Shown here piece after piece: positions 8,059 to 34,122 of a stretch of 34,122 nucleotides of DNA. Within the stretch, counting starts at the first letter, position 1. The number at the start of each line of letters is the position of its first letter. The notes under the pieces are model-generated. The model saw only the letters and a list, made by a program, of their open reading frames with translations, was not told the origin of the DNA and ran no database searches. The position numbers and the translations under genes are program-made. The DNA is from Colwellia sp. GTDB lineage: Bacteria > Pseudomonadota > Gammaproteobacteria > Enterobacterales > Alteromonadaceae. The stretch covers positions 1-34,122 of the forward strand of contig JALJPA010000022.1 of the NCBI GenBank assembly GCA_022969215.1, in the 5' to 3' direction.

Positions 8059-9525
8059 ATGATGGAAAATCAAGACAATAGTTCAACACTACCGGTATTA
8101 CTGCTCGTTGATGATGATGACAATATATTGCAAGCATTAAAAAGAGCCTTACATAATACTCAGGCTACTATCATTGACTTTAATTCGCCACTTGCAGCAC
8201 TAGAATATTGCCAAACAAATCAGCCTGATGTGGTTATTTCAGATCAGCACATGCCCGATATGAATGGCTGCGAATTATTAGAGAAAATAAGAAATCGTTG
8301 GCCTAATTCTCAGCGTATTATTTTATCGGCCTATCAAGATTTTGACCTTGTTTCCGCCGCATTTAGCTCAGGCGTCGTCGAAAAATACATTTGTAAACCT
8401 TGGGTAAATAAAGAGCTGAAATTTGTAGTCGATAAGGCGCTAAGTAGAAAGGTCAATGTCACTGTTATTCCTAGTGATGAAGACAACATACCACTGACAG
8501 GGTTAATTAACTTTCACGGTATGGTGGCTGAAGATGAAACCATGCATGAACTGTTTGACAGTATTAGGCACGCTTCAAGCACTAATGCGCCCATTTTTAT
8601 TACCGGGGAAACAGGTACGGGGAAGGAGTTGGTAGCCAAAGCTTGTCACCTTGAAAGTTACCATAAAGACCAACCTTTTATTGCGGTAAATTGCGCTAAT
8701 TTCAGTGAAAACTTAATTGAGTCGCAACTCTTTGGGCATACTAAAGGGGCCTTTACTGGTGCAATATCAAATCAAGAAGGCTTATTCTCAGCAGCGAAAC
8801 AAGGCAGTTTATTTTTAGACGAGATAACCACTTTATCTAAACCCTTACAAGCAAAGTTATTGCGCGTAGTGCAAGAACGAGAATTCTCGCCATTAGGCAC
8901 CAATGAAGTACTAAAGTTTCATGCGCAAATTATTTCAGCTTCATCTAATTCTATTAGCAATGCTGTAAGAGAAGGTGACTTTAGAGAGGATTTATATTAC
9001 CGACTTAATGTTATTACCATGGCTTTACCGCCATTAAGGGAGCGAGGAGGAGATCTTGTGCATCTGGCTAGTTTCTTTCTGAAAAAATATAACAAAATCG
9101 AGAAAAAACATTTTAAAAAGTTCTCTCGTAACGCCATTCAAATCATATGCGCTTATGACTGGCCCGGTAATATTCGTCAATTAGAAAATGTAATTCATGG
9201 CATGGTTATTTTAAATAGTGGCGAGCAAATAACCTCCGAAATAATCATAAAGTCATTGTCTACTACGGTAAAGAATTATATGGCTGTGCAACCTATACCA
9301 ACTCAGTCGGCTCAGTTAGCTCAACCAGCGATGGGAAGTAATGATTCCTATCAAAACACCACTAACGGTTATGTAAAAAACAACTTGGCGATTCAACCAC
9401 TTTGGCAAGTAGAAAAAGATGCTATTGAAGCGGCCTTATTACATTGTCAGGGTAATATCCCTAAAGCTGCGGCGATGCTAGAAGTAAGCCCTTCAACTAT
9501 ATATAGGAAAAAACTCGGCTGGTAA
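8059..9525 (+). CDS. NtrC-family sigma-54-dependent response regulator, SypG-like
   Basis: The product (488 residues from the chosen ATG) is an enhancer-binding activator of RNA polymerase-sigma-54. The REC domain has the acidic VDDDD cluster, phosphoacceptor Asp62 in VVISDQHMPDMNG and a CKPW lysine. The AAA+ domain (about 165-390) shows Walker A GETGTGKE, the sigma-54-contact loop GAFTGA, Walker B GSLFLDE and the arginine-finger region YYRLNV. A C-terminal Fis-type helix-turn-helix (GNIPKAAAMLEVSPSTIYRK) binds DNA. An in-frame TTG at 8056 and a second ATG at 8062 are alternative starts; the Shine-Dalgarno is weak. Its position beside a syp-like polysaccharide locus with several sigma-54-type promoters makes it the likely master activator. 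No cognate kinase is nearby. Confidence 0.92.
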   Translation: MMENQDNSSTLPVLLLVDDDDNILQALKRALHNTQATIIDFNSPLAALEYCQTNQPDVVISDQHMPDMNGCELLEKIRNRWPNSQRIILSAYQDFDLVSAAFSSGVVEKYICKPWVNKELKFVVDKALSRKVNVTVIPSDEDNIPLTGLINFHGMVAEDETMHELFDSIRHASSTNAPIFITGETGTGKELVAKACHLESYHKDQPFIAVNCANFSENLIESQLFGHTKGAFTGAISNQEGLFSAAKQGSLFLDEITTLSKPLQAKLLRVVQEREFSPLGTNEVLKFHAQIISASSNSISNAVREGDFREDLYYRLNVITMALPPLRERGGDLVHLASFFLKKYNKIEKKHFKKFSRNAIQIICAYDWPGNIRQLENVIHGMVILNSGEQITSEIIIKSLSTTVKNYMAVQPIPTQSAQLAQPAMGSNDSYQNTTNGYVKNNLAIQPLWQVEKDAIEAALLHCQGNIPKAAAMLEVSPSTIYRKKLGW

Positions 9526-9662
9526 ATAATGATGGCAAAGCTAATAGTTAAGGCTAAAGACGACTAGTTTTAAGTGCTAAAACCAAAAAAAATATGAGCA
9601 GTTGATGCTCTATTTCTATTTATAACAAATTAAACTCAATGTATTCCTGATATCAAAAGTGC

Positions 9663-9677
9663 TTTGCAGTTTGCAAC
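9663..9677 (+). promoter_or_regulatory. Putative enhancer site A (TTTGCA-N3-TGCAAC)
   Basis: TTTGCAGTTTGCAAC lies 60 bases upstream of the sigma-54-type promoter at 9737. It has the same form as the sites before 19032, 24346 and 30641, consistent with a binding site for the adjacent sigma-54 regulator. It sits in the otherwise gene-free 9526-9844 interval, where no other structure was seen. Confidence 0.5.
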
Positions 9678-9736
9678 GGCAATTATCCACAAAAAACCAA
9701 CAAAACCTAACCTACTGAAAAATAATATAAAAAAAA

Positions 9737-9752
9737 CGGAACACTCCTTGCA
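9737..9752 (+). promoter_or_regulatory. Sigma-54-type promoter A before the LruC-domain gene
   Basis: CGGAACACTCCTTGCA has GG at 9738-9739 and GC at 9750-9751, exactly ten bases apart, with an intact TTGCA -12 element. Transcription would start near 9763, leaving a leader of about 80 bases before the ATG at 9845. Confidence 0.6.
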
Positions 9753-9844: not shown

Positions 9845-11944
9845 ATGATGTATGCAAAAAATATTCAGTGTGCTTTTTTCGCTTTCTCTTATTGTTGCTT
9901 AATGCTTTTTAACGGCTATGTCACTGCTGCTCCCTTCGAAAGTTGTCCTTCTAAAGCGTTTCTAATGCAACAACAAGTCGCACAGCTTTATGGGGTAAAC
10001 CTAGTGACAGGGGATTACTCGCTATTATCTGCTGATTTAGGCACTAATGACAAAATAAACGCCATTGGTTTTAATTTTCATGATAATTACATTTATGGTT
10101 GGGGTTATGAATGGGGCACCTTAGTTCGCATTGGCGATGATTACCAAGCTACGCCTATTACCTTAGGAAACAATCCAGGAGTAAATTTTTTTGTTGGTGA
10201 TGTCGCACTCAATGACAACAACTATTATTTTTATAAAAAAGGCTCAGCTTATGGTCTCTATAAGCTTTCTTTAGACGAACAATCAGTCGACTTTCTGCAA
10301 GTTAGTAAAGTTATTGATGGGCAATCCTTGTCGTTAAGCATTTATGATTTTGCTTTTCATCCCGTCAATAACTTTCTTTACACCGTTGATAAAAATGGCC
10401 TATTACACCAAATCGATGTAAATAGCGGCGTAGCAAATACGCTGGGTAATGTCGGTGAACAAGGCACATTTGGCGCTATTTATTTTGATGTTGATGGCAA
10501 CTTATATATCAGTCGAAATAGTGACGGCTATGTATTTATTATTGACGTGACTGACGCAAGCCCGACCGCTACCTTATTCGCTTATGGCCCTAGTGCCTCA
10601 CAAAATGACGGCGCCCGCTGTGCTATTGCGCCGATTGTTGACGAGTCTATTGCCGCAACTGTCGATTATGGTGATGCCCCTGATAGTTATGGCACAACCT
10701 TGTTTAGTAACGGCGCTAGACATAGTGTTAGTGATAATTACTTAGGTAATAGTGTAACTACTGAGCACAATGCCAATGTCTATCCCAAAACAGATGTGGA
10801 TGACGGCATCGTTTTCTTAACCCCCTTATTAGCCGGCAGCGATAGCTTAATCCAAGTACAAGCAACAGGGGCTGGCTTTCTTAACATTTGGGGTGATTGG
10901 AATCGAGATGGCCAATTTTCAGCCGATGAAAAACTAATCTCTGACAAATATTTAGAAAACACCACTGACGTTTTTTTGGTCAATACACCGCTAACTGCCT
11001 TAAATGGTTTTACCTGGCTCAGGGCAAGGTTTACCACAATGGCTGATGTTGCTGTCAGTGGCGGCGTATCTGACGGTGAAGTGGAAGACTACCGCGTTAT
11101 CGTGACGAATTCAGGCAATAGCCAAATTCAAGATACCCCGTATTACCTTGCTTTTGAGGATAGTTGGCCTGAGGAAGGTGATTACGATATGAATGACGTG
11201 GTTATTTTACAGAATTCATCATTATTGTTAACCGATACCGGCCAAGTAAAACAAATAGAATTTCAAGGTGAAGTAAAAGCGTTAGGTGCTTCTTATCATA
11301 ATGGTTTTGCCATTCAATTAGATAATATATTACCTAGTAATGTAGACACTAGCTTAGTGCGCTTTGAAATTAACGGTGTTTTGCAAGAGGTCAGTCCCAT
11401 AGAAGAAGGTACACAATATTTAGTCATTAATATTACTGATGATTTACGCAGTCACATTCAATTAACCCAGAGCTGTTTATATTATCGAACCGAGAGTAAT
11501 TGCAGTAACTCATCTTTGATGACCTTTAGCGTAACAATCCCGTTTGTTGCCCCTATTGCTCTTGAAGAATTTCCTGAAGCTCCCTATAACCCCTTTATAT
11601 TTGCTAAAGACGGGACTTATCATGGCGACCTTTTCTTTCACCCTGGTAGAGGGCTAGAAGTTCACCTAAAAAATAAACTACCAACATCTAAAGCTGACCT
11701 ATCGTTGTTTGGCATGGCCGCAGACAGAACTCAACTTGATGGAGAAAATAAATATCAAACCAGCAACGGTTTACCTTGGGCACTGGCAATCAATCCCGGC
11801 TCACAAGAAGAGTGGAAGCATCCAAGTGAAATGGTTGACATTTTACAAGCATATCCCGACTTTCAAGTCTTCGTAGAAAGTAATGGTAATAATTCCAGCG
11901 ACTGGTTTTCACAAAGTAATGCGGTAAATTCTAAATTGTATTAA
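9845..11944 (+). CDS. Secreted LruC/GEVED-domain protein, candidate matrix protein
   Basis: The 699-residue product has an N-terminal signal peptide ending near VTAA (about residue 29). A beta-propeller-like region follows (about 45-270, DUF6923 style, repeated 'FHPVNNFLYTVDKNG' type strands). Then comes a YGDAPDSYGT/GARH lead-in and a GEVED domain (about 345-415), which includes an EF-hand-like loop DWNRDGQFSADE and the signature DGEVEDY. An LruC domain (about 433-690, starting YYLAFEDSWPEEGDYDMNDV) completes it. There is no PEP-CTERM, LPXTG or autotransporter end. The start has AGGGAG eight bases upstream; a second ATG follows directly. It is the first gene behind promoter A, so coexpression with the polysaccharide is inferred. 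The biochemical role of LruC domains is not established. Confidence 0.8.
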   Translation: MMYAKNIQCAFFAFSYCCLMLFNGYVTAAPFESCPSKAFLMQQQVAQLYGVNLVTGDYSLLSADLGTNDKINAIGFNFHDNYIYGWGYEWGTLVRIGDDYQATPITLGNNPGVNFFVGDVALNDNNYYFYKKGSAYGLYKLSLDEQSVDFLQVSKVIDGQSLSLSIYDFAFHPVNNFLYTVDKNGLLHQIDVNSGVANTLGNVGEQGTFGAIYFDVDGNLYISRNSDGYVFIIDVTDASPTATLFAYGPSASQNDGARCAIAPIVDESIAATVDYGDAPDSYGTTLFSNGARHSVSDNYLGNSVTTEHNANVYPKTDVDDGIVFLTPLLAGSDSLIQVQATGAGFLNIWGDWNRDGQFSADEKLISDKYLENTTDVFLVNTPLTALNGFTWLRARFTTMADVAVSGGVSDGEVEDYRVIVTNSGNSQIQDTPYYLAFEDSWPEEGDYDMNDVVILQNSSLLLTDTGQVKQIEFQGEVKALGASYHNGFAIQLDNILPSNVDTSLVRFEINGVLQEVSPIEEGTQYLVINITDDLRSHIQLTQSCLYYRTESNCSNSSLMTFSVTIPFVAPIALEEFPEAPYNPFIFAKDGTYHGDLFFHPGRGLEVHLKNKLPTSKADLSLFGMAADRTQLDGENKYQTSNGLPWALAINPGSQEEWKHPSEMVDILQAYPDFQVFVESNGNNSSDWFSQSNAVNSKLY

Positions 11945-12016: not shown

Positions 12017-12472
12017 ATGAAAACTTACTTAATTACAATGTTGCTGTTAACACAGACACTGCTTGGATGTGGCGGCGAAGAAGAAAGTGAAGGAAAGGTT
12101 GAGGTAGCACAGGAAACACCGCCACCAGTCAACACTGTAACCACCAGTGAGCTAGTTAGCACGCCAGAATTTAACTTTATTTCTGGTATTAAGTTAACAG
12201 TAACCTTGCCTGCTTCCCCGACAGCAACTATCGATTACTTCATTAATATTTGCACAGACTTTATCAATGAAGATAATGTTATAAGCATCAATTACCAAAG
12301 TTGTAAATTAAGAACAGCCATCACGGCACAAACGCAAGAATTTACTTTATCCTTGAGCGTAGCGGAGCTACAGTTAGTAGCCCAGATTTGGCCAATAGAA
12401 AGTAACGCCCAAGCAATAAATGCTTACTGGGATATTGCTGAATCAGGCCGTAACTGGAAAATAGCTTTTTGA
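12017..12472 (+). CDS. Small lipoprotein of unknown function
   Basis: The 151-residue product carries a lipoprotein signal with lipobox LLGC (Cys18), followed by an acidic GGEEESEGK linker and a predicted beta-rich domain with several cysteines (NICTDF, QSCKL). I do not recognise a family. AAGGAA precedes the ATG. It lies 72 bases after the LruC gene and ends before a strong terminator, so the two probably form a two-gene transcript. It could anchor or assist the LruC protein at the envelope. Confidence 0.65.
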   Translation: MKTYLITMLLLTQTLLGCGGEEESEGKVEVAQETPPPVNTVTTSELVSTPEFNFISGIKLTVTLPASPTATIDYFINICTDFINEDNVISINYQSCKLRTAITAQTQEFTLSLSVAELQLVAQIWPIESNAQAINAYWDIAESGRNWKIAF

Positions 12473-12641: not shown

Positions 12642-12656
12642 ATTGCATTTTGAAAA
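12642..12656 (+). promoter_or_regulatory. Putative enhancer site B (degenerate, ATTGCA-N3-TGAAAA)
   Basis: ATTGCATTTTGAAAA matches the TTYGCA-N3-TGCAWY form except at a few positions (TGA in place of TGC). It is 83 bases upstream of the sigma-54-type element at 12740. It is the weakest member of the series. Apart from this and promoter B, the 12589-12814 interval shows nothing else. Confidence 0.3.
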
Positions 12657-12727
12657 GCGTAACGCGAAAGCAATTCACAAAGCGCTAAAGCAAAGCAACT
12701 TAAACACTAAAATAGACCTATTAACAA

Positions 12728-12742
12728 CCACTTACAAAGTGG
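12728..12742. repeat. Inverted repeat CCACTT-ACA-AAGTGG overlapping promoter B
   Basis: A perfect 6-bp inverted repeat with a 3-base centre ends on the GG of the sigma-54-type -24 element (12741-12742). A protein bound here would block the promoter, so a repressor operator is possible; chance is not excluded. Confidence 0.4.
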
Positions 12743-12755
12743 CTCGTAACTTGAA
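12740..12755 (+). promoter_or_regulatory. Sigma-54-type promoter B before the lipoprotein/Wzz unit
   Basis: TGGCTCGTAACTTGAA shares TGGCTCG with the near-consensus promoter at 19032 and has TTG at the right distance. The -12 element ends GA rather than GC, which would weaken it. Start near 12765, leader about 50 bases before the ATG at 12815. Confidence 0.45.
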
Positions 12756-12814: not shown

Positions 12815-13273
12815 ATGAAAATCATGCCATTAAACTGCATTTTTGTTATGACATTGTTTACTTGTACTGGTTGTATTTCGACCTCGATAAGTGATTCATT
12901 GGCATTAATCGAACAAGAAGATAGTCGCGCCAACAATAAAACCGTTAATAAAGAAGTCTTGACTCGTATCCAAGCGTTACGCTTTTCACAAAAGCTAGCC
13001 GAACAGCAGCACACTTTTAGTTATGATTTACATAATACTGAATTAAATTACGCGGATAAAATAAAAATCACCCGCCTAATAGTAAATAACAAACAAAGCG
13101 TTACCATTAACATTGCTCCAGCTAAGGGCACAAATATTCTCCATCAATTAGCTATTTCCATGGAGAGGGCCGAAGTACTGCGCCTATATATTGGTCATTT
13201 TAATAACAAGGTGACCATTAAGTTTGCGCCTAAGTTGACAAACGACACTATTAACTTAGTTATTGGAGTCTAA
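12815..13273 (+). CDS. Small lipoprotein at the head of the polysaccharide assembly unit
   Basis: The 152-residue product has a lipoprotein signal with lipobox CTGC (Cys20). The remainder is soluble, with a charged helical part (about 45-70) and a C-terminal half (LAISMERAEVLRLYIGH, VTIKFAPKLTNDTINLVIG). The latter faintly recalls an OmpA-C or CpaD-type fold, though no diagnostic peptidoglycan-binding motif is present. A perfect AAGGAGGT Shine-Dalgarno precedes the ATG, predicting high translation. Its stop is one base before the Wzz-type start, so the two genes are translationally linked. I cannot name a function; an accessory envelope role in export or chain-length control is inferred only from position. 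Confidence 0.7.
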   Translation: MKIMPLNCIFVMTLFTCTGCISTSISDSLALIEQEDSRANNKTVNKEVLTRIQALRFSQKLAEQQHTFSYDLHNTELNYADKIKITRLIVNNKQSVTINIAPAKGTNILHQLAISMERAEVLRLYIGHFNNKVTIKFAPKLTNDTINLVIGV

Positions 13274-13274: not shown

Positions 13275-14753
13275 ATGACGACATCAGTCATTATAAATAT
13301 TCACCTTATTTTATCGGCGATATGGCGTCATCGGTATTTAATCTTCTTACCAGCAATTGCCTTACCCTTTATCGCGATAATTGCTTGTTTAATTGCCCCT
13401 AGAACGTGGCAAGCACACACAACCATACTGGTACAAGAAAGTGCCAAAATGAACCCTTTTCTTGAAGACTTATCAATATCCACTGATTTAGAAAATAGAA
13501 TGACCACTTTAGATACCTTACTGCATAGTCGACATATGTTAATTAATGTCGGCAAAGATTTAGCGCTAATAGATGAACAGTCAACAGACTTACAAAAGGA
13601 GCAGTTAGTTAAAGAGTTATCCGCTGCACTTAAAGTACAGTTAATCGGTAAAGATTTAGTAAAGCTTGTTTACCAAACTGACTCACCCGACAATATCGTT
13701 GCTGTCTTACAGGTAGTTAGAGCAAGGTTTTTAGAAAAACTGTTAGCGCCTGAGTTATCCGCAATAGATGCGTCGGAATCATTTCTCAGCAGTCAATTGT
13801 CCTTAAAAACGGCCGACTTACAAGAATCGGAGTTTAGGTTAGCCAATTTCAAGCAATACAATGCTGAGCACTTACCCAGACTTTATAGTGCAAATAGCAA
13901 TAGGTTCAGTCAATTAAGCATGTTACTCGAACAGAAAAAGATTGAATTATCAGGTGCTATTGCCGCTAAAAGAACCATTCGTACTCGGCTTGCCCAAGTA
14001 GACCCTGTGATGAGTGAAATTGAACAAAGCATAGTAACAACAAAAAGTGAGCTAGCTATTTTACGCTCACGCTACACCGGACGACACAGCAAAGTACAAA
14101 CAGCAATGAGGAAATTATCACAGCTTGAAGATGAACGAGTAAACCAAAGCAAAGCATCATACAAGATAACCGAAGTAGACTTAAATCGTTTATGGGAAAT
14201 TGCCAGTCGCATGCAAGATGGTGAAGTGGATAACAATCAAAACTTATTATTAGTCTCACAATTACAAGAATTACAATTCGCCGACAGTCACGTAGAAAAA
14301 ATCAAAGAAGAGATTAACTCTATAGCAAAGCAAACCAAAAACCTAAAGACCTCACTTGCCGGCACGGGTGAAATGGAAAGACAACTGTTATCCCTTGAAA
14401 GAGACCTTAAGGTTAAACGAGACTTATATAGTGATTTACTATATCGCTATGAAAAAGCAAAAATAACGGGCGCCCTTGGCAAGTTTGAACAACCAGAAAG
14501 AATCAAAATAATCGACGAGCCATACCAGCCAAGTTCGCCGACTAACTTTCCGCTTTCTATATTTTTATTAGCCGGGATTATTGGCGGCATATGTTTAGGT
14601 GGCGGTTTAGCGCTATTCGCTGAGTTAGCTGACACATCTATCCGTGCAAGATATCAACTAGAATTAATTACCTCGGCCCCAGTAATAACCCGGCTGCCAC
14701 GAATCGGAGTAAAACCTTTTGCAAGTATGAAAGGTTTAGGAGAAAACTTATGA
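13275..14753 (+). CDS. Polysaccharide chain-length determinant (Wzz/GumC type), SypO-like
   Basis: The 492-residue inner-membrane polysaccharide co-polymerase is expected to set chain length and link polymerase to the export pore. TM1 is at about 20-42. A long periplasmic coiled-coil region follows (about 90-415), and TM2 is at about 430-452 (ending LALFAELADTSIRARYQLE). Only a short cytoplasmic tail is present, with no fused kinase; the ATPase partner is probably the separate gene at 22419. The ATG at 13275 is preferred over an in-frame TTG at 13263 because GGAG sits seven bases before it. The gene overlaps the next one by ATGA. Confidence 0.88.
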   Translation: MTTSVIINIHLILSAIWRHRYLIFLPAIALPFIAIIACLIAPRTWQAHTTILVQESAKMNPFLEDLSISTDLENRMTTLDTLLHSRHMLINVGKDLALIDEQSTDLQKEQLVKELSAALKVQLIGKDLVKLVYQTDSPDNIVAVLQVVRARFLEKLLAPELSAIDASESFLSSQLSLKTADLQESEFRLANFKQYNAEHLPRLYSANSNRFSQLSMLLEQKKIELSGAIAAKRTIRTRLAQVDPVMSEIEQSIVTTKSELAILRSRYTGRHSKVQTAMRKLSQLEDERVNQSKASYKITEVDLNRLWEIASRMQDGEVDNNQNLLLVSQLQELQFADSHVEKIKEEINSIAKQTKNLKTSLAGTGEMERQLLSLERDLKVKRDLYSDLLYRYEKAKITGALGKFEQPERIKIIDEPYQPSSPTNFPLSIFLLAGIIGGICLGGGLALFAELADTSIRARYQLELITSAPVITRLPRIGVKPFASMKGLGENL

Positions 14754-15844
14754 AACCCGTCATAGTTCATGTTGTACAACACTTAAAACCCGGTGGTATA
14801 GAAAGTTTTGCGCTAGAGTTTCAAAGAGCTGCACAGCCATTTTTTGATGTACACATTATTTCTTTAGAAAAACAAAACGTTAAATGTTATTGGAATAATA
14901 TTGATGGCTTTAAAGAATTTATCCATATGTTAAATAAAAAACCCGGTTGGCAAGCCAATATTTTTACCCAATTAAAGCAATTCTTCGAAAAAGTTAAACC
15001 TATCTATGTACACACTCACCATATAGGGCCATTAATCTATGGTGGCGTTGCAGCAAGACAGGCAAAGGTTGCTCATATTATACACACTGAGCATGATGCT
15101 TGGCATTTAGCTGATTTTAAACCGAGATTACTACAGAGACTTATTATTAGTTTGGTTCGTCCTATCTATGTCGCTGACGCTAACTTTGTCGCCGAGCAAG
15201 TTAACCGGTTAATGCCATCCTTAAACCCTGTAGTCATACCTAATGGTATAGATACTAATAAATTTAAGCCTTCAACAGTGAGTAAACAGCAACTATTACA
15301 ACAAGCGGGCCTGCCTACAGAGCTAAAGTTTATTGGTTGTGCCGCTAGATTAGAGTCAGTAAAAGCGCATGATGTATTAATCAAAGCAGTGCATAATCTT
15401 CCTAAGAATATTGGTTTATTACTCGCCGGAACCGGCAGTTTAAGAGAAAAATTACAGCAATTGGTCATTGAGTTAAAATTAGAAAAAAGAGTGTTCTTTT
15501 TAGGTCACGTTGATGACATGACCACATTTTACCCGTTAATTGATGTTTTTTGTCTTTCCTCAAATAACGAAGGGCTGCCCTTGTCTCCTATGGAAGCCCA
15601 AGCCTGTGGCGTACCTGCGGTATTAACTGACGTGGGCGGCTGTAGAGAAGCTGTCTGTAGTGAGACCGGTATGGTTGTTCAAGCTAATAACCCGACATTG
15701 CTATCACAAGCGCTCCTTCGCTCACTCACACAAAAACGTAAACATTCACCACGAATATTCATTGAGAAACAGCGATCACTCGACCAGATGATCAAACAAT
15801 ATGTTTCATTAACCCAAGCTGATTTAAGGAGAAAGCTATGTTAG
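14750..15844 (+). CDS. GT4-family glycosyltransferase, SypP-like
   Basis: The 364-residue GT-B retaining glycosyltransferase is predicted to add a sugar to the lipid-linked repeat unit at the cytoplasmic membrane face. The N-terminal acceptor-side signature PGGIESFALEF and HTHHIG are present. The C-terminal donor domain has NGID, GCAARLESVKAHD and the E-x7-E motif in EGLPLSPMEAQACG. Donor and acceptor cannot be deduced. Start ATG overlaps the upstream stop by four bases; the downstream gene starts seven bases before this one ends, so O-P-Q are translationally coupled. Confidence 0.9.
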   Translation: MKPVIVHVVQHLKPGGIESFALEFQRAAQPFFDVHIISLEKQNVKCYWNNIDGFKEFIHMLNKKPGWQANIFTQLKQFFEKVKPIYVHTHHIGPLIYGGVAARQAKVAHIIHTEHDAWHLADFKPRLLQRLIISLVRPIYVADANFVAEQVNRLMPSLNPVVIPNGIDTNKFKPSTVSKQQLLQQAGLPTELKFIGCAARLESVKAHDVLIKAVHNLPKNIGLLLAGTGSLREKLQQLVIELKLEKRVFFLGHVDDMTTFYPLIDVFCLSSNNEGLPLSPMEAQACGVPAVLTDVGGCREAVCSETGMVVQANNPTLLSQALLRSLTQKRKHSPRIFIEKQRSLDQMIKQYVSLTQADLRRKLC

Positions 15845-17022: not shown

Positions 17023-17030
17023 GAGATATT

Positions 17031-17672: not shown

Positions 17673-17807
17673 ATCCACTTTCATACTATTTTTGTCCTTG
17701 TTGTGCACTGATAAAATAAATAAGGGCAAAACGGTCGATTAAATAATAATTCAGCGAAGCGGATTTAACACCAGATGCGATTAAAGGATAAGGATAAGGT
17801 TAAGCCT

Positions 17808-18944: not shown

Positions 18945-18959
18945 TTCGCAATTTGCATT
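18945..18959 (+). promoter_or_regulatory. Putative enhancer site C (TTCGCA-ATT-TGCATT)
   Basis: TTCGCAATTTGCATT lies 72 bases upstream of the best sigma-54-type promoter. It is the closest of the series to the V. fischeri SypG enhancer as I recall it (TTCTCA-N3-TGC). That recalled consensus should be verified. Confidence 0.55.
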
Positions 18960-19031
18960 CTATTATGCCTATTGATAAAACCATACAAAACTCAACACAC
19001 TCAAACCACTGATATTAAACACAAAAAACAT

Positions 19032-20301: not shown

Positions 20302-20311
20302 GGAATTGACC

Positions 20312-22417: not shown

Positions 22418-22418
22418 T

Positions 22419-26746: not shown

Positions 26747-28105
26747 ATGACATATTCTCCTTTAAGTATGACCAGTATGGTGCTTATGTTAATGCTAACA
26801 ACATTCGCGCTATATTTTTTCCCTCACCCGATAATATTCATTGTTATAGGATTAATTCCCTTTGCTCTATGGGGTATGGTCAACTTCTCATTTTATATTG
26901 TTTTAGCCTTTGTCATTTTTTCTTTTTTTCGAATCCATGAAATATTTCCTTTTTTAGAGCCACTGAAATTACCTTTACTACTGGCGTTAGCGGCACTATT
27001 TGTTATTGGTTTACGAGCAACAATCAGCCAAAATCTGCACCCTTATTGGTGTCCACAATTTACCTTATTAATACTGTTCTTTTTACTGATAACACTTGCG
27101 GTCCCCTTTGCCAGCAACGTTGGTGTGGCAACAAATGCTTGGACAGGGGTTTACAGCAAAATTATCTTAATGACCTTTGTTATAGCCTGGATGATGCGGC
27201 ACGAGAGCCACTTTATCACCGCCAGCCGGGTATTTATTTTTGCTGGTGCCTGTGTTGGTCTGGTTGCCATATCAAACAAACTTAATGGTATTGGTTTAGT
27301 TGAGGGCACTCGAGTCACTATAGGCCGAGACATCGGCTCTTTACTGGGCGACCCAAATGATCTGGCCTTGGTACTTTTGTACCCTATGGCATTCGCAATA
27401 GCCACTTTCCTAGAGAAGTCTCTTTCAAAGTTTGAACGATTCTTTAGTTTTAGTACTTTTTGTATTTTATTTTATGCGCTACTAGCCACTCAAAGCAGGG
27501 GCGGCTTGTTAGGTTTTTTAGCGGTAGCAAGCATATTCGCCTATAACCGCATTCGATCCAAAGTTTTATTATTTTCAGGGGCAGCGTTTTCTCTAATAAT
27601 TTTATTTGTTGTTGCCGGCATCAGCAAAAGATCATCAGGCGGCGCTGCAGAAGCAGGCATAGATGAATCAGCAATGGGGAGACTATATGCCTGGGAGGCC
27701 GCTTGGAATATGGCACTAGACAACCCCATCTTCGGCGTAGGCATTAGTAATTTTTATTACAATTACTTTTTTTATAGCACCCATTGGGATGGATTAAACC
27801 ATGCCGTACATTCCACCTGGTTTGGTGTACTGGCTGAATCTGGTTTTGTTGGTTTTATGCTGTTCGTTGCGCTAATTGTCAGCACATTATTGATGTCTTT
27901 AAAAATGCTGAAAACAATCAAAGTTGAACATCATACTCCAGGCATACGAGTTGCCTTGAATGCTGCGCCAGCAGGAATTATTGGTTTTATCGTTTCTGGA
28001 ACATTTTTAACGCAAGGATTTCTTTGGCCAATCTATTTGCAAGTGGCTTTAGTTATCGCTTTAAACAGGTATCTTTACTACACAAATGACTCGATAAAAC
28101 CCTAA
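26747..28105 (+). CDS. O-antigen ligase/polymerase (Wzy_C) family protein, SypL-like
   Basis: The 452-residue protein has about 11 transmembrane helices and a large periplasmic loop (about 300-355). Typical family landmarks are GDPNDLALVL, ATQSRGG, GRLYAWEAAWNMALDNPIFGVG and HAVHSTWFGVLAESGFVG. It would polymerise the flipped repeat units, or ligate glycan to an acceptor; the family cannot separate these by sequence alone. As no other polymerase is visible in the window, the polymerase role is favoured. Cotranscribed with the flippase. Confidence 0.87.
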   Translation: MTYSPLSMTSMVLMLMLTTFALYFFPHPIIFIVIGLIPFALWGMVNFSFYIVLAFVIFSFFRIHEIFPFLEPLKLPLLLALAALFVIGLRATISQNLHPYWCPQFTLLILFFLLITLAVPFASNVGVATNAWTGVYSKIILMTFVIAWMMRHESHFITASRVFIFAGACVGLVAISNKLNGIGLVEGTRVTIGRDIGSLLGDPNDLALVLLYPMAFAIATFLEKSLSKFERFFSFSTFCILFYALLATQSRGGLLGFLAVASIFAYNRIRSKVLLFSGAAFSLIILFVVAGISKRSSGGAAEAGIDESAMGRLYAWEAAWNMALDNPIFGVGISNFYYNYFFYSTHWDGLNHAVHSTWFGVLAESGFVGFMLFVALIVSTLLMSLKMLKTIKVEHHTPGIRVALNAAPAGIIGFIVSGTFLTQGFLWPIYLQVALVIALNRYLYYTNDSIKP

Positions 28106-28144
28106 AAAAAAACGGAAATGTGTAGCAAACTAGAGGAAGTGAAT

Positions 28145-29458
28145 ATGTCTAATACTATCGCACAAGTTAAAGGAATTAAGCCGCGGATTTTATATGTTCA
28201 TTACGGTGATAACTGGCTCAGAGGCAGTGAAATAGTTTTATTAGACTTACTTAAGTCAGCTAAAGACAACCATTACGCCCCGGTACTTTGGTGTAATAGT
28301 GAAGTTCTAGCAAAAAAAGCAAGCGATTTAGGTGTGGAAGTCATCGTTGATAACTTCGTTTGCCTGGGTTATTGGACTCTACCTAGATGGAATTTCGCAC
28401 AATTTTTCAAACTACTTGTTAAAGCTAAAAAGCTCATAAAAGATTATAAAATTGCTTTAGTGCACAGTAACAATGGTGCACCCTGCCAGTGGATGGTTCC
28501 TATCTGTAAATTGACAGCTACGCCTTTACTGCTGCATTTACATGCGCGTTATATGTATAGAGACAGGTTAACCCTATTGTTTCACGGCGCTGATAACATC
28601 ATAGGCGTCAGTCAATCAGTCACCAAACTATTCAAAAAAAATGAATTCAGTAATCAACAGGTAGATGTTATTTATAATGGGATTGAGCCAAAGCGAGTAC
28701 TTTGTTCCTGCCCTCGTGATATTAGAGCTGAGCTATCAGCCACAAAAACTGACTTTGTTATCTTGTATATGGGTTCACTAATCCCTAGAAAATCAGTGTC
28801 TCAATTATTATATGCTGTAGAGAAATTAAAAAGTCACTATCAAATAAAACTTGCCATTGTTGGCTCCGGCAGTGAAGCAGCCAAATTAACTCATTTGGCT
28901 GCTCAATTGGCCTTAACTCATCACGTTAAATTTTTTGCCGCGAGCGATAAAGTGGCAGAAATTTATTCTAGTAATGCCGATTGTTTCATTTCTGTGCCAA
29001 GCGAAGAGGTTTTTGGTTTAACACTGGCCGAGGCAAGTATTGCCAAGTTAGCCATCATTACCAGTAATATCCCTGGCATTAATGAAATATATACCGACCA
29101 AGAAAATGCCTTATTAATATCACCAAACAATATTGACCAGCTCGTTAGCGCAATAAAGACCTTAATTGAACAACCCTCTTTAAGAAAGCAACTCGCTGAA
29201 AACGCGCAAAAACATATAGTAAAAAAATTCTCGGTAAAACGACAGTTTATTGCTTTCAACCTTGCTTATCAAAGCTTGTTGCAGGGTGAAAACCAGCTCA
29301 GGGTTAGCCAAGCTGTTGCCTCGCACGCTAAAACATTATTAACAGCCTGTTTAAGAAAAGTCTTCACTAAGGTAATGGCTAAACCCTTAACTAACTATTT
29401 AACGAAAGGCTATAAGCATTTACTGTTGAAGTTTTCATGGGGGAAGAGTCATGACTAA
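28145..29458 (+). CDS. GT4-family glycosyltransferase
   Basis: The 437-residue GT-B enzyme has N-terminal ILYVHYGDNWLRGSEIVLLDLL and VHSNNGAP, a donor-side YNGIEP, ILYMGSLIPRKSVSQLL, and E-x7-E in SEEVFGLTLAEAS. The last 60 residues (after about 375) form a basic helical tail that may touch the membrane. AGAGGAAG lies five bases before the ATG at 28145, preferred over the upstream in-frame ATG at 28118. It overlaps the next gene by eight bases. Confidence 0.88.
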   Translation: MSNTIAQVKGIKPRILYVHYGDNWLRGSEIVLLDLLKSAKDNHYAPVLWCNSEVLAKKASDLGVEVIVDNFVCLGYWTLPRWNFAQFFKLLVKAKKLIKDYKIALVHSNNGAPCQWMVPICKLTATPLLLHLHARYMYRDRLTLLFHGADNIIGVSQSVTKLFKKNEFSNQQVDVIYNGIEPKRVLCSCPRDIRAELSATKTDFVILYMGSLIPRKSVSQLLYAVEKLKSHYQIKLAIVGSGSEAAKLTHLAAQLALTHHVKFFAASDKVAEIYSSNADCFISVPSEEVFGLTLAEASIAKLAIITSNIPGINEIYTDQENALLISPNNIDQLVSAIKTLIEQPSLRKQLAENAQKHIVKKFSVKRQFIAFNLAYQSLLQGENQLRVSQAVASHAKTLLTACLRKVFTKVMAKPLTNYLTKGYKHLLLKFSWGKSHD

Positions 29459-30566
29459 ACGTGTATTAATTTATGATCCTGTGCCTTTTAAGGGTGGCTC
29501 AAAAACAGTGATGAAAACAATAATCGCTGAATTACCTAGCAGTATTGAAGTATGGGTTATTTCAAATGACAGAGACTCATGGTGTGACGGCTGCGACGTT
29601 AATGTACATTTTGTACCCTTGTTTTCTCCTCGTTACCTGCAGAATAAAACCACCGGCATACTTTACTTTATCGAGCACTTTATTTATTTAGTCTCTTTGT
29701 TAGCTAATATGATAAAACTGAAAAGATTTAGTAAAATAATCGGTTTTTCCGGGCCGTGTGTAGATTTTTCTCTATACCTACTCACTTCAATAATTAACAT
29801 CGACATTATTCAGCTTATTCAAGGTAATATTACTGACTCTAGAATTTCAGCTTTCGGTTTAAAACGAGCCAAGCAAGTGTTTTACTTGCCTTCCACTTAT
29901 GCCTCAATTTTACGCGCTTTAAAATGCCATAGTCATAATGTAAACATAGCAGACCATAAATTTATGCCATTTGTTAATGGTATTAACTGCTCAACTATAA
30001 AAGTAAAAGAGTCTAGTAATAAAAATATCGATAAAGTTGGTTTTTTATGGGCTGCCTCGTTATTAAAATGGAAGCGGGTAGAACTATTTATCGCTGCAAT
30101 GGCTAAGCTAAATAGTCGCTATAAAGACCTAGATAAAATTTTTGCCAGTGTTTGTTATATTGAGCCAAAAACTGACGCTTATATAGAAGTCGCGAACCTT
30201 GAGAAGGTTGATAATATTTACTGGTATGCGGACCCTAATAATCTAAATGAGATTAGGGCAAGCTCATCAGTGTTTATCTCTACTGCAGAAGATGAACCTT
30301 TTGGCCTATCAATTTTAGAATCAATGGCTGCAGGACTCGCCATAGTAATTCCTGCTGATAATGCTTATTGGGATCAACAGCTAACGGACGGGTTTGATTG
30401 CGTAAAATATGATCCAAATAAGTTGGAAAGTTTAGTGCAAGTTTTAACTCGCCTAGTCAATGAACCCAGTTTTTTATTAAAAATTGCTCAACAAGCTAAA
30501 CTTTCCGCACAACAATATTGCCAATTAGATTGCTATTCTCATATTCTTAAATGCATTCCTAATTAG
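29451..30566 (+). CDS. GT4-family glycosyltransferase (divergent), SypN-like candidate
   Basis: The 371-residue protein has PVPFKGGSKTVMKTI at the N terminus, a hydrophobic membrane-associating stretch (about 70-90), FVNGINCS, GFLWAASLLKWKRVELF and E-x7-E in EDEPFGLSILESMAAG. The order and fold are those of GT-B enzymes though the N-terminal half is unusual. Last gene of the unit starting at 24398. The donor sugar is unknown. Confidence 0.82.
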   Translation: MTKRVLIYDPVPFKGGSKTVMKTIIAELPSSIEVWVISNDRDSWCDGCDVNVHFVPLFSPRYLQNKTTGILYFIEHFIYLVSLLANMIKLKRFSKIIGFSGPCVDFSLYLLTSIINIDIIQLIQGNITDSRISAFGLKRAKQVFYLPSTYASILRALKCHSHNVNIADHKFMPFVNGINCSTIKVKESSNKNIDKVGFLWAASLLKWKRVELFIAAMAKLNSRYKDLDKIFASVCYIEPKTDAYIEVANLEKVDNIYWYADPNNLNEIRASSSVFISTAEDEPFGLSILESMAAGLAIVIPADNAYWDQQLTDGFDCVKYDPNKLESLVQVLTRLVNEPSFLLKIAQQAKLSAQQYCQLDCYSHILKCIPN

Positions 30567-30576: not shown

Positions 30577-30591
30577 TTTGCAAAATGCAAC
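30577..30591 (+). promoter_or_regulatory. Putative enhancer site E (TTTGCA-AAA-TGCAAC)
   Basis: TTTGCAAAATGCAAC matches site A at all positions except the three-base spacer and lies 49 bases upstream of the sigma-54-type element at 30641. Confidence 0.5.
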
Positions 30592-30709: not shown

Positions 30710-32506
30710 ATGTGTGGGATTATTGGAGCAGTAGCAAAATCAGCAATAACACCGGTATTAGAGGGTTTAGCCAGACTTGAATATCGCGGTTATGACTCTT
30801 CGGGTATTTCAATATTAGCGAATAATGAAATTAAAACGATAAAAGCACAAGGTACACTGAGCAACCTAAAGCAAAGACTATTAAGCCAAGCACTAGAGGG
30901 TGACTGTTGCATAGGTCATACCCGCTGGGCAACACACGGCAGAGCTAATGTAACCAACGCACATCCTCATCAATGTGGCCAAGTCTCTGTGGTCCACAAT
31001 GGCATTATCGAAAACTACCTACAGCTAAAGCAAAAATTAATTCAATGGGGTCATCACTTTAATAGTTCAACTGACAGTGAAGTGATCCCTCATTTAATCA
31101 ATCACTATCTGTCTCAACAAATGACTCAGGAACAGGCGATTAAGAAAGCTATCGCCCAGTTAAAGGGTAGCTATGCCTTGGGTGTGTTAATTAATGGTGT
31201 CAGCAATAACCTCTACGCGATTAAGCAAGGTAGTCCATTAGTGATATCACAAGGTAATGAGGGGGCTTATATGGCTTCAGATGCCATGGCTTTAGGCGCT
31301 GATAGTGGCAAAATATATTACCCTAAAGATAATGAATTAATAAAGTTAAACAGCCATGAAATAACTTTATGTGGTGGCGCTAACAATAATGAAATTCATT
31401 ATATCAATAACAAACATTGCGCTAAGTTAGTATCAAAAGGAACACGTAGCTCTTTCATGGAAAAAGAAATCTTTGAACAAGTGGATCTGCTTAAAAGACT
31501 GTCGGTTAATAATCATACTAGCGAATACTCAACAATTAACTTTAAGGACTTAACTAAAATCACCATTATTGCTTGTGGCACCTCATATTATGCCGCTTCT
31601 GTAGCAAAAGCTTGGTTTGAGAAATACGCCAACATCTTAGTTGAAATAGATATAGCCTCAGAATATCGTTATCGTTCACCTATTGTTACCAATAATGAAT
31701 TAGCTATTTTTGTCTCACAGTCCGGAGAGACCGCAGATACACTTGCCGCATTACGGTATGCAAAAAGTAAAAAAGCACAAACACTCGCCTTAGTAAACGT
31801 GGTCAACAGCACCATAGCGCGGGAGGCAAACTTTACCTTTGAAATTTATGCGGGCCCTGAAATTGGTGTTGCTTCAACCAAAGCGTTTAGCTGTCAGTTA
31901 GCCATATTTTATAAAATGGCACTGGAAGCAGCAAAACAAAGAGCCTTTATAGAAAAGGCTGAGTTAACTCAATTAGCACTAAACTTTGCCCAATTACCCG
32001 ACACCATAGAGAAAGTTTTACAACGCTGTGCCGAGATAAAAAGCATGGCTAAAAAGCTATGTAAATATTCAAACATCCTTTTTCTCGGTCGTGGCGCACT
32101 CACGCCTATTGCACAAGAAGGTGCCTTGAAACTAAAAGAAATTAGCTATATTCATGCTGAAGCTTATGCCGCTGGCGAATTAAAACATGGTCCAATTGCT
32201 TTGCTTGATGAACACATGCCAGTACTAGTGATTGCACCTAAAAATGCCCTGACAGATAAACTGCTGTCAAACATTCAAGAAGTACAAGCACGCAATGCGC
32301 CATTGTTTATTATTGGTGATAAATATATTAGGGAACATATTCACTTACAAGAAGATCAGTTCTTTGAACTGCCAGCAATACCTGAGTCCATACTGCCGAT
32401 AATTAGCGTTATCCCCATGCAATTACTCGCCTTATATAGTGCTCAGATACTAGGGAAGAATGTTGATCAACCCAGAAACTTAGCTAAATCGGTGACAGTA
32501 GAATGA
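30710..32506 (+). CDS. glmS: Glutamine-fructose-6-phosphate aminotransferase (isomerizing)
   Basis: The 598-residue cytoplasmic enzyme makes glucosamine-6-phosphate from fructose-6-phosphate and glutamine, the entry step to UDP-GlcNAc. The N-terminal glutaminase domain has the nucleophile Cys2 (MCGIIGAV), RLEYRGYDSSG, GHTRWATHG and VVHNGIIENY. Two SIS domains follow (CGTSYYAA, SQSGETADT; GRGALTPIAQEGALKLKE, GELKHGPIALL), with the conserved C-terminal DQPRNLAKSVTVE. Length is close to E. coli GlmS (609). AAAGAGGT precedes the ATG. Its place in a polysaccharide operon suggests a dedicated second copy supplying amino-sugar precursor; the presence of a housekeeping copy elsewhere is inferred. It overlaps the acyltransferase gene by four bases. 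Confidence 0.95.
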   Translation: MCGIIGAVAKSAITPVLEGLARLEYRGYDSSGISILANNEIKTIKAQGTLSNLKQRLLSQALEGDCCIGHTRWATHGRANVTNAHPHQCGQVSVVHNGIIENYLQLKQKLIQWGHHFNSSTDSEVIPHLINHYLSQQMTQEQAIKKAIAQLKGSYALGVLINGVSNNLYAIKQGSPLVISQGNEGAYMASDAMALGADSGKIYYPKDNELIKLNSHEITLCGGANNNEIHYINNKHCAKLVSKGTRSSFMEKEIFEQVDLLKRLSVNNHTSEYSTINFKDLTKITIIACGTSYYAASVAKAWFEKYANILVEIDIASEYRYRSPIVTNNELAIFVSQSGETADTLAALRYAKSKKAQTLALVNVVNSTIAREANFTFEIYAGPEIGVASTKAFSCQLAIFYKMALEAAKQRAFIEKAELTQLALNFAQLPDTIEKVLQRCAEIKSMAKKLCKYSNILFLGRGALTPIAQEGALKLKEISYIHAEAYAAGELKHGPIALLDEHMPVLVIAPKNALTDKLLSNIQEVQARNAPLFIIGDKYIREHIHLQEDQFFELPAIPESILPIISVIPMQLLALYSAQILGKNVDQPRNLAKSVTVE

Positions 32507-33237
32507 ATACTTTTAACATAAACCACGCCAAGCAATGGGCTAAAACAAGTGATAGTTTTTTAGCCCAATTGATAAAAACACTATGGTTTAAAATTAAAGC
32601 CATAGAAATGCCGAACATCCCTTTTGTATTTAAACTACTTTATTACGTTCACCTAGTGTTCAAGCATGTAATTTCCGATGTATTACGCATCATTTATTAC
32701 ACACCTTTGCTCAAATCTCGACTTAAAAACAACCCTAAACAGCTGTACTTATATGGTGGTTTACCCGTCATAATTGGCAGTTTAGACATTATTATGGGAG
32801 ACAAAGTCAGGTTCGCTGCTATGACCACCATAAGCGGCCGTGCTGTCGGACAGTACATTCCTCAGTTAATCATTGGGGATAATGTCGATATTAGTTGGCG
32901 TACCTCAATATCGGTCGGTAAGACGATTACCATTGGCAATAATGTTCGTATGGCTGGTGATTGTTATTTAGCTGGCTATCCTGGACACCCGGTTAATGCC
33001 AAGTTACGTGCTTTAGGTAAGCCCGATGAAGAAGCGCAAGTCGGAGATATTATTTTAGAAGACGACGTTTGGTTAGCCACTGGAGTAAAAGTAATGTCTG
33101 GGGTGACAATAGGCCGCGGCACAATCGTCGCGGCAGGTAGTGTTGTTACCAAAGACTTGCCCTGTTTTGTCTTAGCGGCAGGTGTACCAGCAAAGGTGGT
33201 TAAATCAATTGAGGGGGAAAGCCATGAATGTTTGTAA
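32503..33237 (+). CDS. Left-handed beta-helix (hexapeptide) acyltransferase, SypM-like
   Basis: The 244-residue protein has an amphipathic N-terminal region (about 20-70) that could contact the membrane. Hexapeptide-repeat turns follow (VIIGSLDIIMGDKVRF, IIGDNVDISWRTSISVG, VTIGRGTIVAAGSVVTKDLP), with the CatB/NodL-type ending LAAGVPAKVVKSI. It would O- or N-acetylate the glycan or a precursor. The likely catalytic His lies in the loop around PGHPVNAK. The start overlaps the glmS stop (ATGA). Confidence 0.87.
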   Translation: MNTFNINHAKQWAKTSDSFLAQLIKTLWFKIKAIEMPNIPFVFKLLYYVHLVFKHVISDVLRIIYYTPLLKSRLKNNPKQLYLYGGLPVIIGSLDIIMGDKVRFAAMTTISGRAVGQYIPQLIIGDNVDISWRTSISVGKTITIGNNVRMAGDCYLAGYPGHPVNAKLRALGKPDEEAQVGDIILEDDVWLATGVKVMSGVTIGRGTIVAAGSVVTKDLPCFVLAAGVPAKVVKSIEGESHECL

Positions 33238-34122
33238 AGGAAAGTCAACGTCTTCAGTGACTGTAGGTAAAAATAGGCCGCTAATTGTTTTCGGCGAAGA
33301 CTGGGGCGCACACCCTAGTTCAACCCAGCATATAGTAAAAATACTAGGCCAAAACCGGCAGATAATTTGGCTTAATTCAATTGGTCTAAGAAAGCCAAAG
33401 CTAACACTGCATGATGTTTCGAGGCTGTTTAACAAAGTAAAATCCTTCATTGTCAATCAGCAAAAGAGCAATAAAACTAAAGATGGCAGTAGTAATAGTA
33501 ATGACAATAACAACAGTCAGTTCATCATCATTAACCCTTTAGTTATCCCCTGTGCAAATAGCTGGCTTTCTTTAAAGCTGAGCAAGACTATTTTGAACTG
33601 GCAACTCAAGTTAGCCTGCGGGGGGCTTAAGTTAAAAGATGCCATTATTTGGGCCTCTTTACCTACCTCTGTTGATTATTTAGAACTCTTTGGCAAAGCC
33701 CCTTGTGTGTATTATTGCGGCGATGATTTTGCTAACCTAGCCGGGGTTGATCACCATTTTGTATCACAAAAGGAGCGTGAGTTAATAGGAAAATCGCGTT
33801 ATATTTTTACCGCCAGTGAGAAGCTGCTAGATAAATTCCCTACCGAGAAAGTTGTTAATATCCCCCATGGCGTCAACTTTTCACTGTTCAGTAAACCTGT
33901 CGAGACTACGCCTTTGGATTTACCACAAGGTAAACCTATAGCTGGTTTTTATGGCAGTATTTCAGCCTGGTTAGATCAAGATTTATTAGTGCAAACAATT
34001 ACAGCATTACCTCATTGGTGTTTTGTCTTTATCGGCAAAGTTGACTGTAATGTCGATAAACTGCAACAATTTTCTAATGTCTATTTTCTTGGCGCTAAGC
34101 CTCATGTTGACTTGCCTAAGTA
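33224..34122 (+). CDS. Glycosyltransferase-like protein (3' end beyond window)
   Basis: An open frame of 299 codons runs from the ATG at 33224 (GGGGGAAA Shine-Dalgarno upstream) to the window edge and overlaps the acyltransferase by 14 bases. The product has VFGEDWGAHPSSTQHIV at the N terminus, VYYCGDDFANLAGVDHH, IFTASEKLLDKFP, HGVNFSLFS and a donor-domain start AGFYGSISAWLDQDLL. This is the pattern of GT-B proteins related to TuaH/WcaI-type enzymes. An Asn/Ser-rich insert (about residues 85-102) lies between the first strands. The E-x7-E region lies beyond the edge. Confidence 0.8.
   Translation, partial: MNVCKGKSTSSVTVGKNRPLIVFGEDWGAHPSSTQHIVKILGQNRQIIWLNSIGLRKPKLTLHDVSRLFNKVKSFIVNQQKSNKTKDGSSNSNDNNNSQFIIINPLVIPCANSWLSLKLSKTILNWQLKLACGGLKLKDAIIWASLPTSVDYLELFGKAPCVYYCGDDFANLAGVDHHFVSQKERELIGKSRYIFTASEKLLDKFPTEKVVNIPHGVNFSLFSKPVETTPLDLPQGKPIAGFYGSISAWLDQDLLVQTITALPHWCFVFIGKVDCNVDKLQQFSNVYFLGAKPHVDLPK

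Follow-up and report, generated by a model that had tools for sequence, protein, structure and literature searches.

The 34,122-bp stretch of DNA analysed here (the window), which is the entire contig C135 (JALJPA010000022.1) of the Colwellia-related assembly G000 (GCA_022969215.1; 5.04 Mb in 434 contigs, 87% complete), carries a polysaccharide locus that, judged by its protein sequences, is a genuine syp-type locus and represents the Colwellia form of the syp/scv family. We consider it likely that this form is run by a different activator of the LuxO/SypG superclade, under the control of a flanking kinase, and that it has its own GlmS and YvcK. The original prediction, made from the DNA letters alone, had proposed a symbiosis-type polysaccharide system extending outside the Vibrionaceae with new parts. 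The locus is indeed syp, but its extension beyond that family is already published in the sections of PMC8941931 drawn on here. The annotation is right but not new; what is of interest is the exchange of control and the operator class.

Identification of the syp genes

Gene calls and domain searches recovered every predicted gene at its position, and the window has orthologues of 15 syp genes out of 18, namely A–D and H–R. In BLASTP comparisons inside the two loci, all 15 proteins are reciprocal best matches of the Syp proteins of Aliivibrio fischeri strain emors.2.1 (reference loci L265 and L266, taken from the same genome as L225), with 25–59% identity; the whole A. fischeri genome was searched for P and I, and the other 13 proteins were compared within the loci. 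All syp genes lie on the plus strand. The first block (13275–17672) consists of SypO (13275–14753; Wzz/GNVR chain-length protein, 40%), SypP (14750–15844; glycosyltransferase of family GT4, 42%), for which sypP is the top match genome-wide in A. fischeri (274 bits, next 61), SypQ (15838–17022; GT2, PgaC-like, 42%, with the NCBIfam PgaC model far under its cut-off) and SypR (17031–17672; Bac_transf, initiating sugar-phosphate transferase, 59%). The second block (19085–23114) holds SypA (19085–19435; STAS, 35%), SypB (19435–20301; OmpA-type, 25%, aligned over the OmpA domain only), SypC (20306–22417; SLBB polysaccharide export, 51% over 700 residues) and SypD (22392–23114; AAA kinase, BY-kinase-like, 33%).

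The remaining genes are SypH (24398–25438; GT4, 41%), for which the ATG at 24398 is the likely start, the alignment beginning at codon 48 of the longest open reading frame (ORF), SypK (25428–26738; flippase, 38%), SypL (26747–28105; Wzy_C ligase/polymerase, 52%), SypI (28118–29458; GT4, 32%; best match in the whole A. fischeri genome sypI, 228 bits, next 43), SypJ (29451–30566; GT4, 29%), SypM (32503–33237; hexapeptide acyltransferase, 49%) and SypN (33224–34122; glycosyltransferase, 43% over 281 amino acids). Since the window is a complete contig, the cluster is truncated at its 3′ end, where SypN is cut. SypB, SypJ and SypI gave the weakest matches. The canonical A–R order is found in A. fischeri, G155 and G163 (G147 gave no J match), and this order together with the reciprocal matches settles which of the three GT4 genes is H, which I and which J. 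With 15 reciprocal best matches in the locus and a SypC match that extends over 700 residues, the resemblance is not due to chance. The proposed O-P-Q-R and A-B-C-D blocks and the flippase, ligase, acyltransferase and glycosyltransferase set (K/L/M/H–N) were thus borne out by the reciprocal comparison with the Syp proteins.

The families concerned serve Wzx/Wzy-type assembly and SLBB export. By family, SypR would start the lipid-linked unit, H, I, J, N, P and Q would extend it, M would acylate it and K would flip it; L would then polymerise or ligate, O and D would set the length, and C and B would export the product.

Gene order and relation to known syp and scv loci

As had been predicted, O–R precedes A–D in the window, opposite to the order in V. 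fischeri, but this is not unusual outside the Vibrionaceae. A scan of a species-genome collection turned up 401 relatives, of which the best 80 were retained and named (loci L175–L254, the best-80 set). In this set, O–R was scored as upstream of A–D on the same strand when Q or R exceeded 150 bits within a 10-kb flank; 12 of the 13 Colwellia loci have this order, as do all 3 from Thalassotalea and 27 of the 40 others, but none of the 24 from Vibrionaceae. The order in the other 40 loci led us to reject the module order as an oddity of the window and indicates that gene order does not define the syp/scv family. G102, a member of the Vibrionaceae, has O–R first too.

Liu et al. 2022 (PMC8941931) described homologues of syp, which they named scv, from 28 genera and 148 species; the genera include Thalassomonas and Thalassotalea, and Alteromonadales are covered. 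According to the same sections of that paper, gene loss, duplication, shuffling and loss of sypE/sypF occur in scv loci, SypE and SypF are not obligatory and were not found in the V. parahaemolyticus scv locus, and the syp and scv loci studied so far make biofilm polysaccharide. Loci lacking sypE are also recorded for V. parahaemolyticus and V. vulnificus in the part of PMC4517449 used here. The main text of PMC8941931, as distinct from its supplementary tables, makes no mention of Colwellia, YvcK, glmS, LruC, HD-GYP or periplasmic binding, and no report of the window variant was found in the open-licence literature, where most subscription papers are missing.

The window and V. fischeri syp have in common the 15 orthologues, the sigma-54 boxes and activator sites before sypA, and the LruC–lipoprotein pair beside sypA. 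They differ in that the modules are permuted, SypE, SypF and SypG are not in the locus, and another activator stands there; a second GlmS (GlmS2), a second YvcK (YvcK2), an EEP-domain protein and the ORF orf12815 are added, and the operator is TTTGCA-N3-TGCAAA instead of TTCTCANNNTGMDWN.

The activator is not a SypG orthologue

The gene at 8059–9525 (plus strand) encodes a response regulator with a sigma-54 AAA+ domain (Pfam), described in the original prediction as SypG-type. In a tree of 50 activators, 11 window-type proteins form one clade (100/100) within a superclade of 37 sequences that includes SypG and LuxO (100/99); the outer part of this tree is unsure because several long branches occur among the other activators. 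The assignment to the SypG type therefore stands at the level of the superclade, but not at that of the clade, and SypG (288 bits) is not even the best match in A. fischeri, which is a gene on contig C34 (304 bits) that we take to be luxO. The canonical SypG of the second locus of the Colwellia bin G008 (G008b) scores 521–528 bits against three Aliivibrio SypG proteins, compared with 293–295 bits for the window activator. By these comparisons, the window activator is a member of the LuxO/SypG superclade and not an orthologue of SypG.

The two ends of the protein behave differently. Its helix-turn-helix (HTH) domain scores 41–63 bits to the SypG proteins of Aliivibrio, Colwellia and Thalassotalea, 46 to LuxO and 34–63 over other members of the superclade, and at most 11 to 13 other activators. 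This very similar HTH, the GAFTGA motif and the common superclade make up the likeness to LuxO and SypG. Compared with A. fischeri SypG the receiver scores 18 bits, with LuxO 30 and with other SypG sequences 38 at most; the neighbouring HD-GYP regulator gives 50 bits and two other activators 48–57. The receiver is probably foreign rather than SypG-like, and because the receiver scores are small, its exchange is probable rather than proven.

Probable loss of SypF, SypE and SypG from the D–H junction

The genes F-E-G lie between D and H in all three Thalassotalea loci and in the second locus of Colwellia bin G008, and window-type loci have an EEP gene at this place instead (23133–24089, minus strand; Pfam). 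The EEP protein gave no match in the PDB, and no function was assigned to it. The locus of Thalassotalea algicola M1531 (L186) shares the order LruC-lp1-lp2-O-P-Q-R-YvcK-A-B-C-D-...-H-K-L with the window and differs in retaining F-E-G between D and H, with no EEP match there. Full-length SypE was not found in G000, in which one receiver–PP2C protein matched at 45 bits; of the 14 genomes searched, G008 and G070 have it and the other 12 do not. SypF was not among the window genes in domain searches, no genome-wide search for it having been made, and a SypG orthologue is absent from the window. Outside the family, G074 combines an activator of the window type with syp genes that have no E-F-G next to them. 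These arrangements suggest that F-E-G probably lay between D and H in the colwelliacean ancestor and were lost from there in the lineage of the window.

Bin G008 has two syp loci, on contigs C25 and C27; one retains canonical F-E-G and the other belongs to the window type. The scores of the C27 locus are identical to those of the G023 locus, and the double locus may alternatively stem from bin mixing.

SypE phosphorylates S56 of SypA in V. fischeri, according to the parts of PMC4517449 and PMC8256260 used here. In our alignment, the window SypA keeps the equivalent serine and the helix that follows (DSSGIGAIVFLYKRM). Among the 76 of 80 named loci that could be scored, the serine is kept in 35 of 35 with SypE near and in 36 of 41 without, nearness meaning within the 10-kb flank, so that a SypE farther off would be missed. 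That SypA keeps a phosphorylatable serine where SypE is missing may mean that another serine kinase acts on it. Replacements were seen where no SypE lies nearby, by Thr in L199, by Ala in L200, L201, L212 and G067 and by Pro in L205, and in none of the 35 named SypE-bearing loci; they look like a locked switch. Lys at the SypE-control position R27 of SypA was rejected as a sign, loci with SypE being also found without Arg.

A proposed four-gene input cassette

Divergent from the activator gene, a response regulator with a receiver and a degenerate HD-GYP domain (Pfam Response_reg and HD_5) is encoded at 6583–7869 on the minus strand. It is the best match to the activator outside the sigma-54 proteins in a whole-genome search (1.4e-12, next 2.2e-9). 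Both the HDxGK and the GYP motif are missing in the window protein, and HDxGK is missing in nine relatives (that of G001 being a fragment). The protein is therefore unlikely to cut cyclic di-GMP, and we rejected the idea of an active phosphodiesterase.

In relatives, a histidine kinase (HisKA, HATPase_c) stands either after SypN (G001, G002, G004, G016, G020 and G024, and by ORF size G037) or before LruC (G005, G010, G017, G023 and both G008 loci); the window contig ends before the position after SypN. A periplasmic binding protein, of family Peripla_BP_6 in G001 (Pfam), adjoins the kinase in G001, G005, G008, G010, G017 and G023 by sequence and elsewhere by ORF size. There are 17 kinase copies of at least 52% identity in 16 of 41 genomes, including the four syp-negative relatives of the same genus G006, G007, G019 and G022. 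In G022 an 11-kb contig without syp genes carries the activator, the HD-GYP regulator, the binding protein and the kinase side by side. We refer to these four genes, encoding the activator with its foreign-looking receiver, the probably inactive HD-GYP regulator, the binding protein and the histidine kinase, as the putative input cassette, which exists without syp too.

At L113 (G006) and L131 (G019), LruC with its lipoprotein, the binding protein and the kinase stand beside a different polysaccharide cluster, which suggests that modules travel between clusters.

Predicted promoters and operator classes

Promoters were scanned in up to 13 Colwellia loci, with expectations from 60 dinucleotide shuffles, for the palindrome TTTGCA-N3-TGCAAA (at least 10/12) located 40–130 bp before a −24/−12 box (at least 8/10). 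The arrangement of palindrome and box precedes LruC in 9 of 11 loci (expected 0.00) and SypA in 6 of 13 (expected 0.03); it was found for orf12815 in 2/11, GlmS in 2/10, EEP in 1/9 and SypM in 1/11, and for no others. Considered by itself, the palindrome is present before GlmS in all 10 loci (expected 0.82), before H in 5 of 11 (0.53) and before EEP in 4 of 9 (0.47). At orf12815 the box alone is present in 11 of 11 (expected 0.75), with the palindrome at threshold in only two of the 11. Among genes with no predicted promoter, the palindrome was seen at none of the SypO, YvcK, GlnS and MltF genes, at 2/11 for SypK, 1/11 for SypM, 2/10 for the HD-GYP gene and 3/11 for the activator gene; GlnS had boxes in 3/7.

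In the window itself, the predicted LruC promoter spans 9663–9751, with the palindrome at 9663–9677 and the −24/−12-like box at 9737–9751. The predicted promoter of orf12815-O-P-Q-R-YvcK (12642–12754) has its site at 12642 and its box at 12740, and that of sypA (18945–19046) has its site at 18945, which at 9/12 is below threshold in the window, and its box at 19032. A palindromic predicted activator site with one mismatch lies before GlmS at 30577–30591, where the sigma-54 box is weak; all four are on the plus strand. The predicted sigma-54 promoters with activator sites are thus conserved before LruC and sypA, and the GlmS site is conserved with a weaker box.

Around sypA in the best-80 set, a GCA-type palindrome occurs in 7/13 Colwellia, 3/3 Thalassotalea, 16/37 other and 3/24 Vibrionaceae loci, and TTCTCA-N3-TGAGAA in 0/13, 0/3, 5/37 and 20/24, respectively, some loci being counted under both types. 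The part of PMC10162802 used here gives TTCTCANNNTGMDWN as the SypG site and TTGCAWWWTGCAA as the LuxO site, and names the way in which syp promoters are kept separate from LuxO as still to be determined in 2023. The LuxO site resembles the window-type palindromes. Operator class varies by taxon, the LuxO-like TTTGCA-N3-TGCAAA type occurring in 10 of the 16 Colwellia and Thalassotalea loci taken together; exceptions include L210, L219 and L244.

Locus copies of GlmS and YvcK

YvcK, glmS and EEP had been listed as extra members of the locus, and relative to A. fischeri they are real additions. The locus GlmS (30710–32506, plus strand) is a second copy with about 44% identity to the housekeeping enzyme. 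Two GlmS copies were found in 6 of 6 syp-positive relatives tested, and one in each of 5 syp-negative relatives and in A. fischeri. The locus copy alone was detected in G000, the housekeeping glmS being presumably missing from the assembly. Since 13 of the 40 loci outside Colwellia, Thalassotalea and Vibrionaceae in the best-80 set also have a GlmS gene, GlmS is a recurrent guest.

The YvcK/CofD-like protein (17775–18692, plus strand) is likewise a second copy, the housekeeping one being encoded on contig C100 of G000 (42%). The locus type (at least 52% identity, compared with about 42% for housekeeping copies) is represented by 14 copies in 13 genomes, each beside syp genes. Within the best-80 set it was seen only in Colwellia, where 12 of 13 loci have it, and in Thalassotalea, where all 3 do; none was seen in syp-positive G017, whose contig ends near there. 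Members of the YvcK family bind UDP-sugars. Aligned with five housekeeping copies, the locus YvcK keeps the GGGHGLG, TTDNGGSTGR and LGPGSF motifs, and its C-terminal part has diverged. Decay of the gene in G023, G008 and G037 was rejected, as uninterrupted ORFs of 293, 293 and 308 amino acids carry nearly the whole score; the stops within these matches are accordingly at match edges. More distant YvcK genes lie near syp genes outside Colwellia and Thalassotalea, in G054, G057, G060, G085, L243 and L247, and in the four genomes among these (G054, G057, G060 and G085) they are the sole YvcK found, so the link between YvcK and syp may predate the second copy.

LruC and the small lipoproteins

The secreted protein encoded at 9845–11944 (plus strand; DUF6923, GEVED and LruC/DUF4842 domains) is a candidate Bmp-like matrix protein with a 41% identical homologue in A. 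fischeri. It is paired with a small, Bal-like lipoprotein (12017–12472, plus strand), a pair also present in syp-negative relatives and in A. fischeri, and a second small lipoprotein-like ORF, orf12815 (12815–13273, plus strand), follows, which has no Pfam match and recurs in Colwellia and Thalassotalea loci. In A. fischeri, A. sifiae and another Aliivibrio, the LruC and sypA genes are divergently oriented, and a small lipoprotein follows LruC in those read. We therefore rejected LruC as a new part, and the prediction that LruC and its lipoprotein are additions fails. A. fischeri has a second LruC–lipoprotein pair, and both pairs have an exact SypG-type site upstream. The pairs are probably the bmp/bal genes of V. 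fischeri, which encode SypG-regulated Bmp matrix proteins and Bal lipoproteins; the pairs likewise combine a secreted protein, a small lipoprotein and SypG-type sites. The literature speaks of three bmp and three bal genes in V. fischeri, compared with the two such pairs found here in A. fischeri. In G067 and G091, of another family, LruC stands beside SypG. An AlphaFold model of LruC was poor (mean predicted local distance difference test score 48.8, from 8 sequences).

At L115–L118 (G026, G030, G032 and G033), LruC and the lipoprotein occur without nearby polysaccharide genes, and these relatives gave no SypC match.

Proposed mechanism and alternative explanations

In the mechanism that we propose, the flanking kinase would sense a ligand through the periplasmic binding protein and phosphorylate both the activator and the degenerate HD-GYP regulator. 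The activator would then induce, in concert, the units for export, assembly, matrix protein and GlmS. GlmS2 would feed hexosamine into UDP-N-acetylglucosamine, the pool of which YvcK2 might gate or sense, and the LruC protein with its lipoprotein would bind cells into the polysaccharide. SypA would act after transcription, under another serine kinase or unregulated. On a bolder version we are evenly divided: in one Colwellia lineage the command chain would have been wholly exchanged, with F-E-G lost, the four-gene cassette taking over the operator class, a private GlmS and YvcK captured, and another serine kinase acting on SypA.

A number of observations weigh against the proposed explanation. 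The fork that parts the window clade from SypG and LuxO reaches only 85/81, with LuxO placed among the SypG sequences, and the receiver scores are low, canonical SypG sequences reaching 38 bits and the side group G018/G019 67–68. The syp-positive G018 showed no full-length kinase in the 41-genome search. Neither kinase nor binding protein was found in the incomplete assembly G000, where there is a partial kinase match of 43% (32 of 79 candidates scored), and the link of this pair to the window locus therefore rests on relatives. LruC is a remnant in G002, and some LruC pairs lie apart from syp loci altogether. In the window alone, none of the three patterns exceeds chance: sigma-54 matches number 25 (29.4 expected), matches to the published SypG site 62 (54.9 expected) and palindromes 39 (40.6 expected). 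Since the motif was defined on the same, related sequences, the promoter signal represents conservation rather than an independent test.

Part of this evidence would also fit an ordinary syp/scv locus in which the regulator is a diverged SypG, SypE and SypF act from elsewhere, and GlmS, YvcK and EEP are passengers. The regulator has a SypG/LuxO-like HTH, its sites resemble those before sypA in canonical-SypG loci, the fork is weak and G000 is incomplete, and the sypE-less loci of V. parahaemolyticus and V. vulnificus (PMC4517449) offer a precedent. We nevertheless regard this explanation as unlikely, because the same genus contains a canonical SypG that scores far above the window type, the window proteins have a fully supported clade of their own, full-length SypE is missing from G000 and most of the other genomes searched, and GlmS2 has its own conserved site in every locus scanned.

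Two further alternatives concern the nature of the locus and its product. That it is an unrelated XrtA/PEP-CTERM-type exopolysaccharide cluster merely resembling syp is suggested by the best NCBIfam names of O, C, L and P, which are XrtA/PEP-CTERM models. Of these four, only the SypC model is above its curated cut-off, no exosortase appeared among the Pfam and NCBIfam matches of the window genes, and both the reciprocal best matches and the order within modules favour syp, making such a cluster highly improbable. The product might instead be a capsule or a lipopolysaccharide-linked polymer, with SypL as ligase, in place of a released biofilm polysaccharide. SypL has a Wzy_C/O-antigen-ligase domain and by sequence is indistinguishable from a polymerase; the annotated window genes, however, include no lipopolysaccharide-core genes, and the studied syp and scv relatives make biofilm polysaccharide (PMC8941931, in the sections cited above). 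A capsule or lipopolysaccharide product thus appears rather improbable, if less so than an XrtA-type cluster.

Under exchanged control, the stable parts of syp are A–D, H–R, a sigma-54 activator of the LuxO/SypG superclade and often the LruC pair, and the exchanged parts are the sensor, the receiver and SypE/SypF. The natural pair of G008 loci, with and without F-E-G, makes the control of SypA where SypE is missing testable, and the operator shift between Vibrionaceae and others does the same for the way in which syp promoters are kept apart from LuxO.

Organisation of the window and carriers of the locus

The left part of the window, on the minus strand, holds an mltF-type lytic transglycosylase, a glnS-type gene, a chemotaxis receptor and the degenerate HD-GYP regulator. 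On the plus strand follow the sigma-54 activator, LruC, the two small lipoprotein-like ORFs, O-P-Q-R, the YvcK-like gene and A-B-C-D. The right part begins with EEP on the minus strand; the plus-strand genes beyond it are H, K, L, I, J, GlmS, M and the truncated N. Searches of the window with Rfam and for tRNA and tmRNA gave no matches.

SypC of the window type was found in 24 of 99 relatives, and in 13 of 38 within the same genus. In the best 80 of 401, the nearest named contigs are from Colwellia, with SypC identities of 97, 93 and 92%, which supports the original assignment to Colwelliaceae. The nearest carriers in that set are Colwellia sp. DT_17, C. piezophila, C. psychrerythraea GAB14E, sp. 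75C3, C. marinimaniae, sp. TT2012 and others, followed by Thalassotalea algicola M1531; C. piezophila and C. marinimaniae are thus among the carriers of the variant.

In the Colwellia loci L178 (G010) and L180 (G005), the H–N part does not lie within 20 kb after SypD, and the locus is seemingly split. The chemotaxis receptor (4461–6092), between the glnS-type gene and the HD-GYP regulator in the window, is not at that place in the syp-positive G001, G002, G016, G020, G024 and G037.

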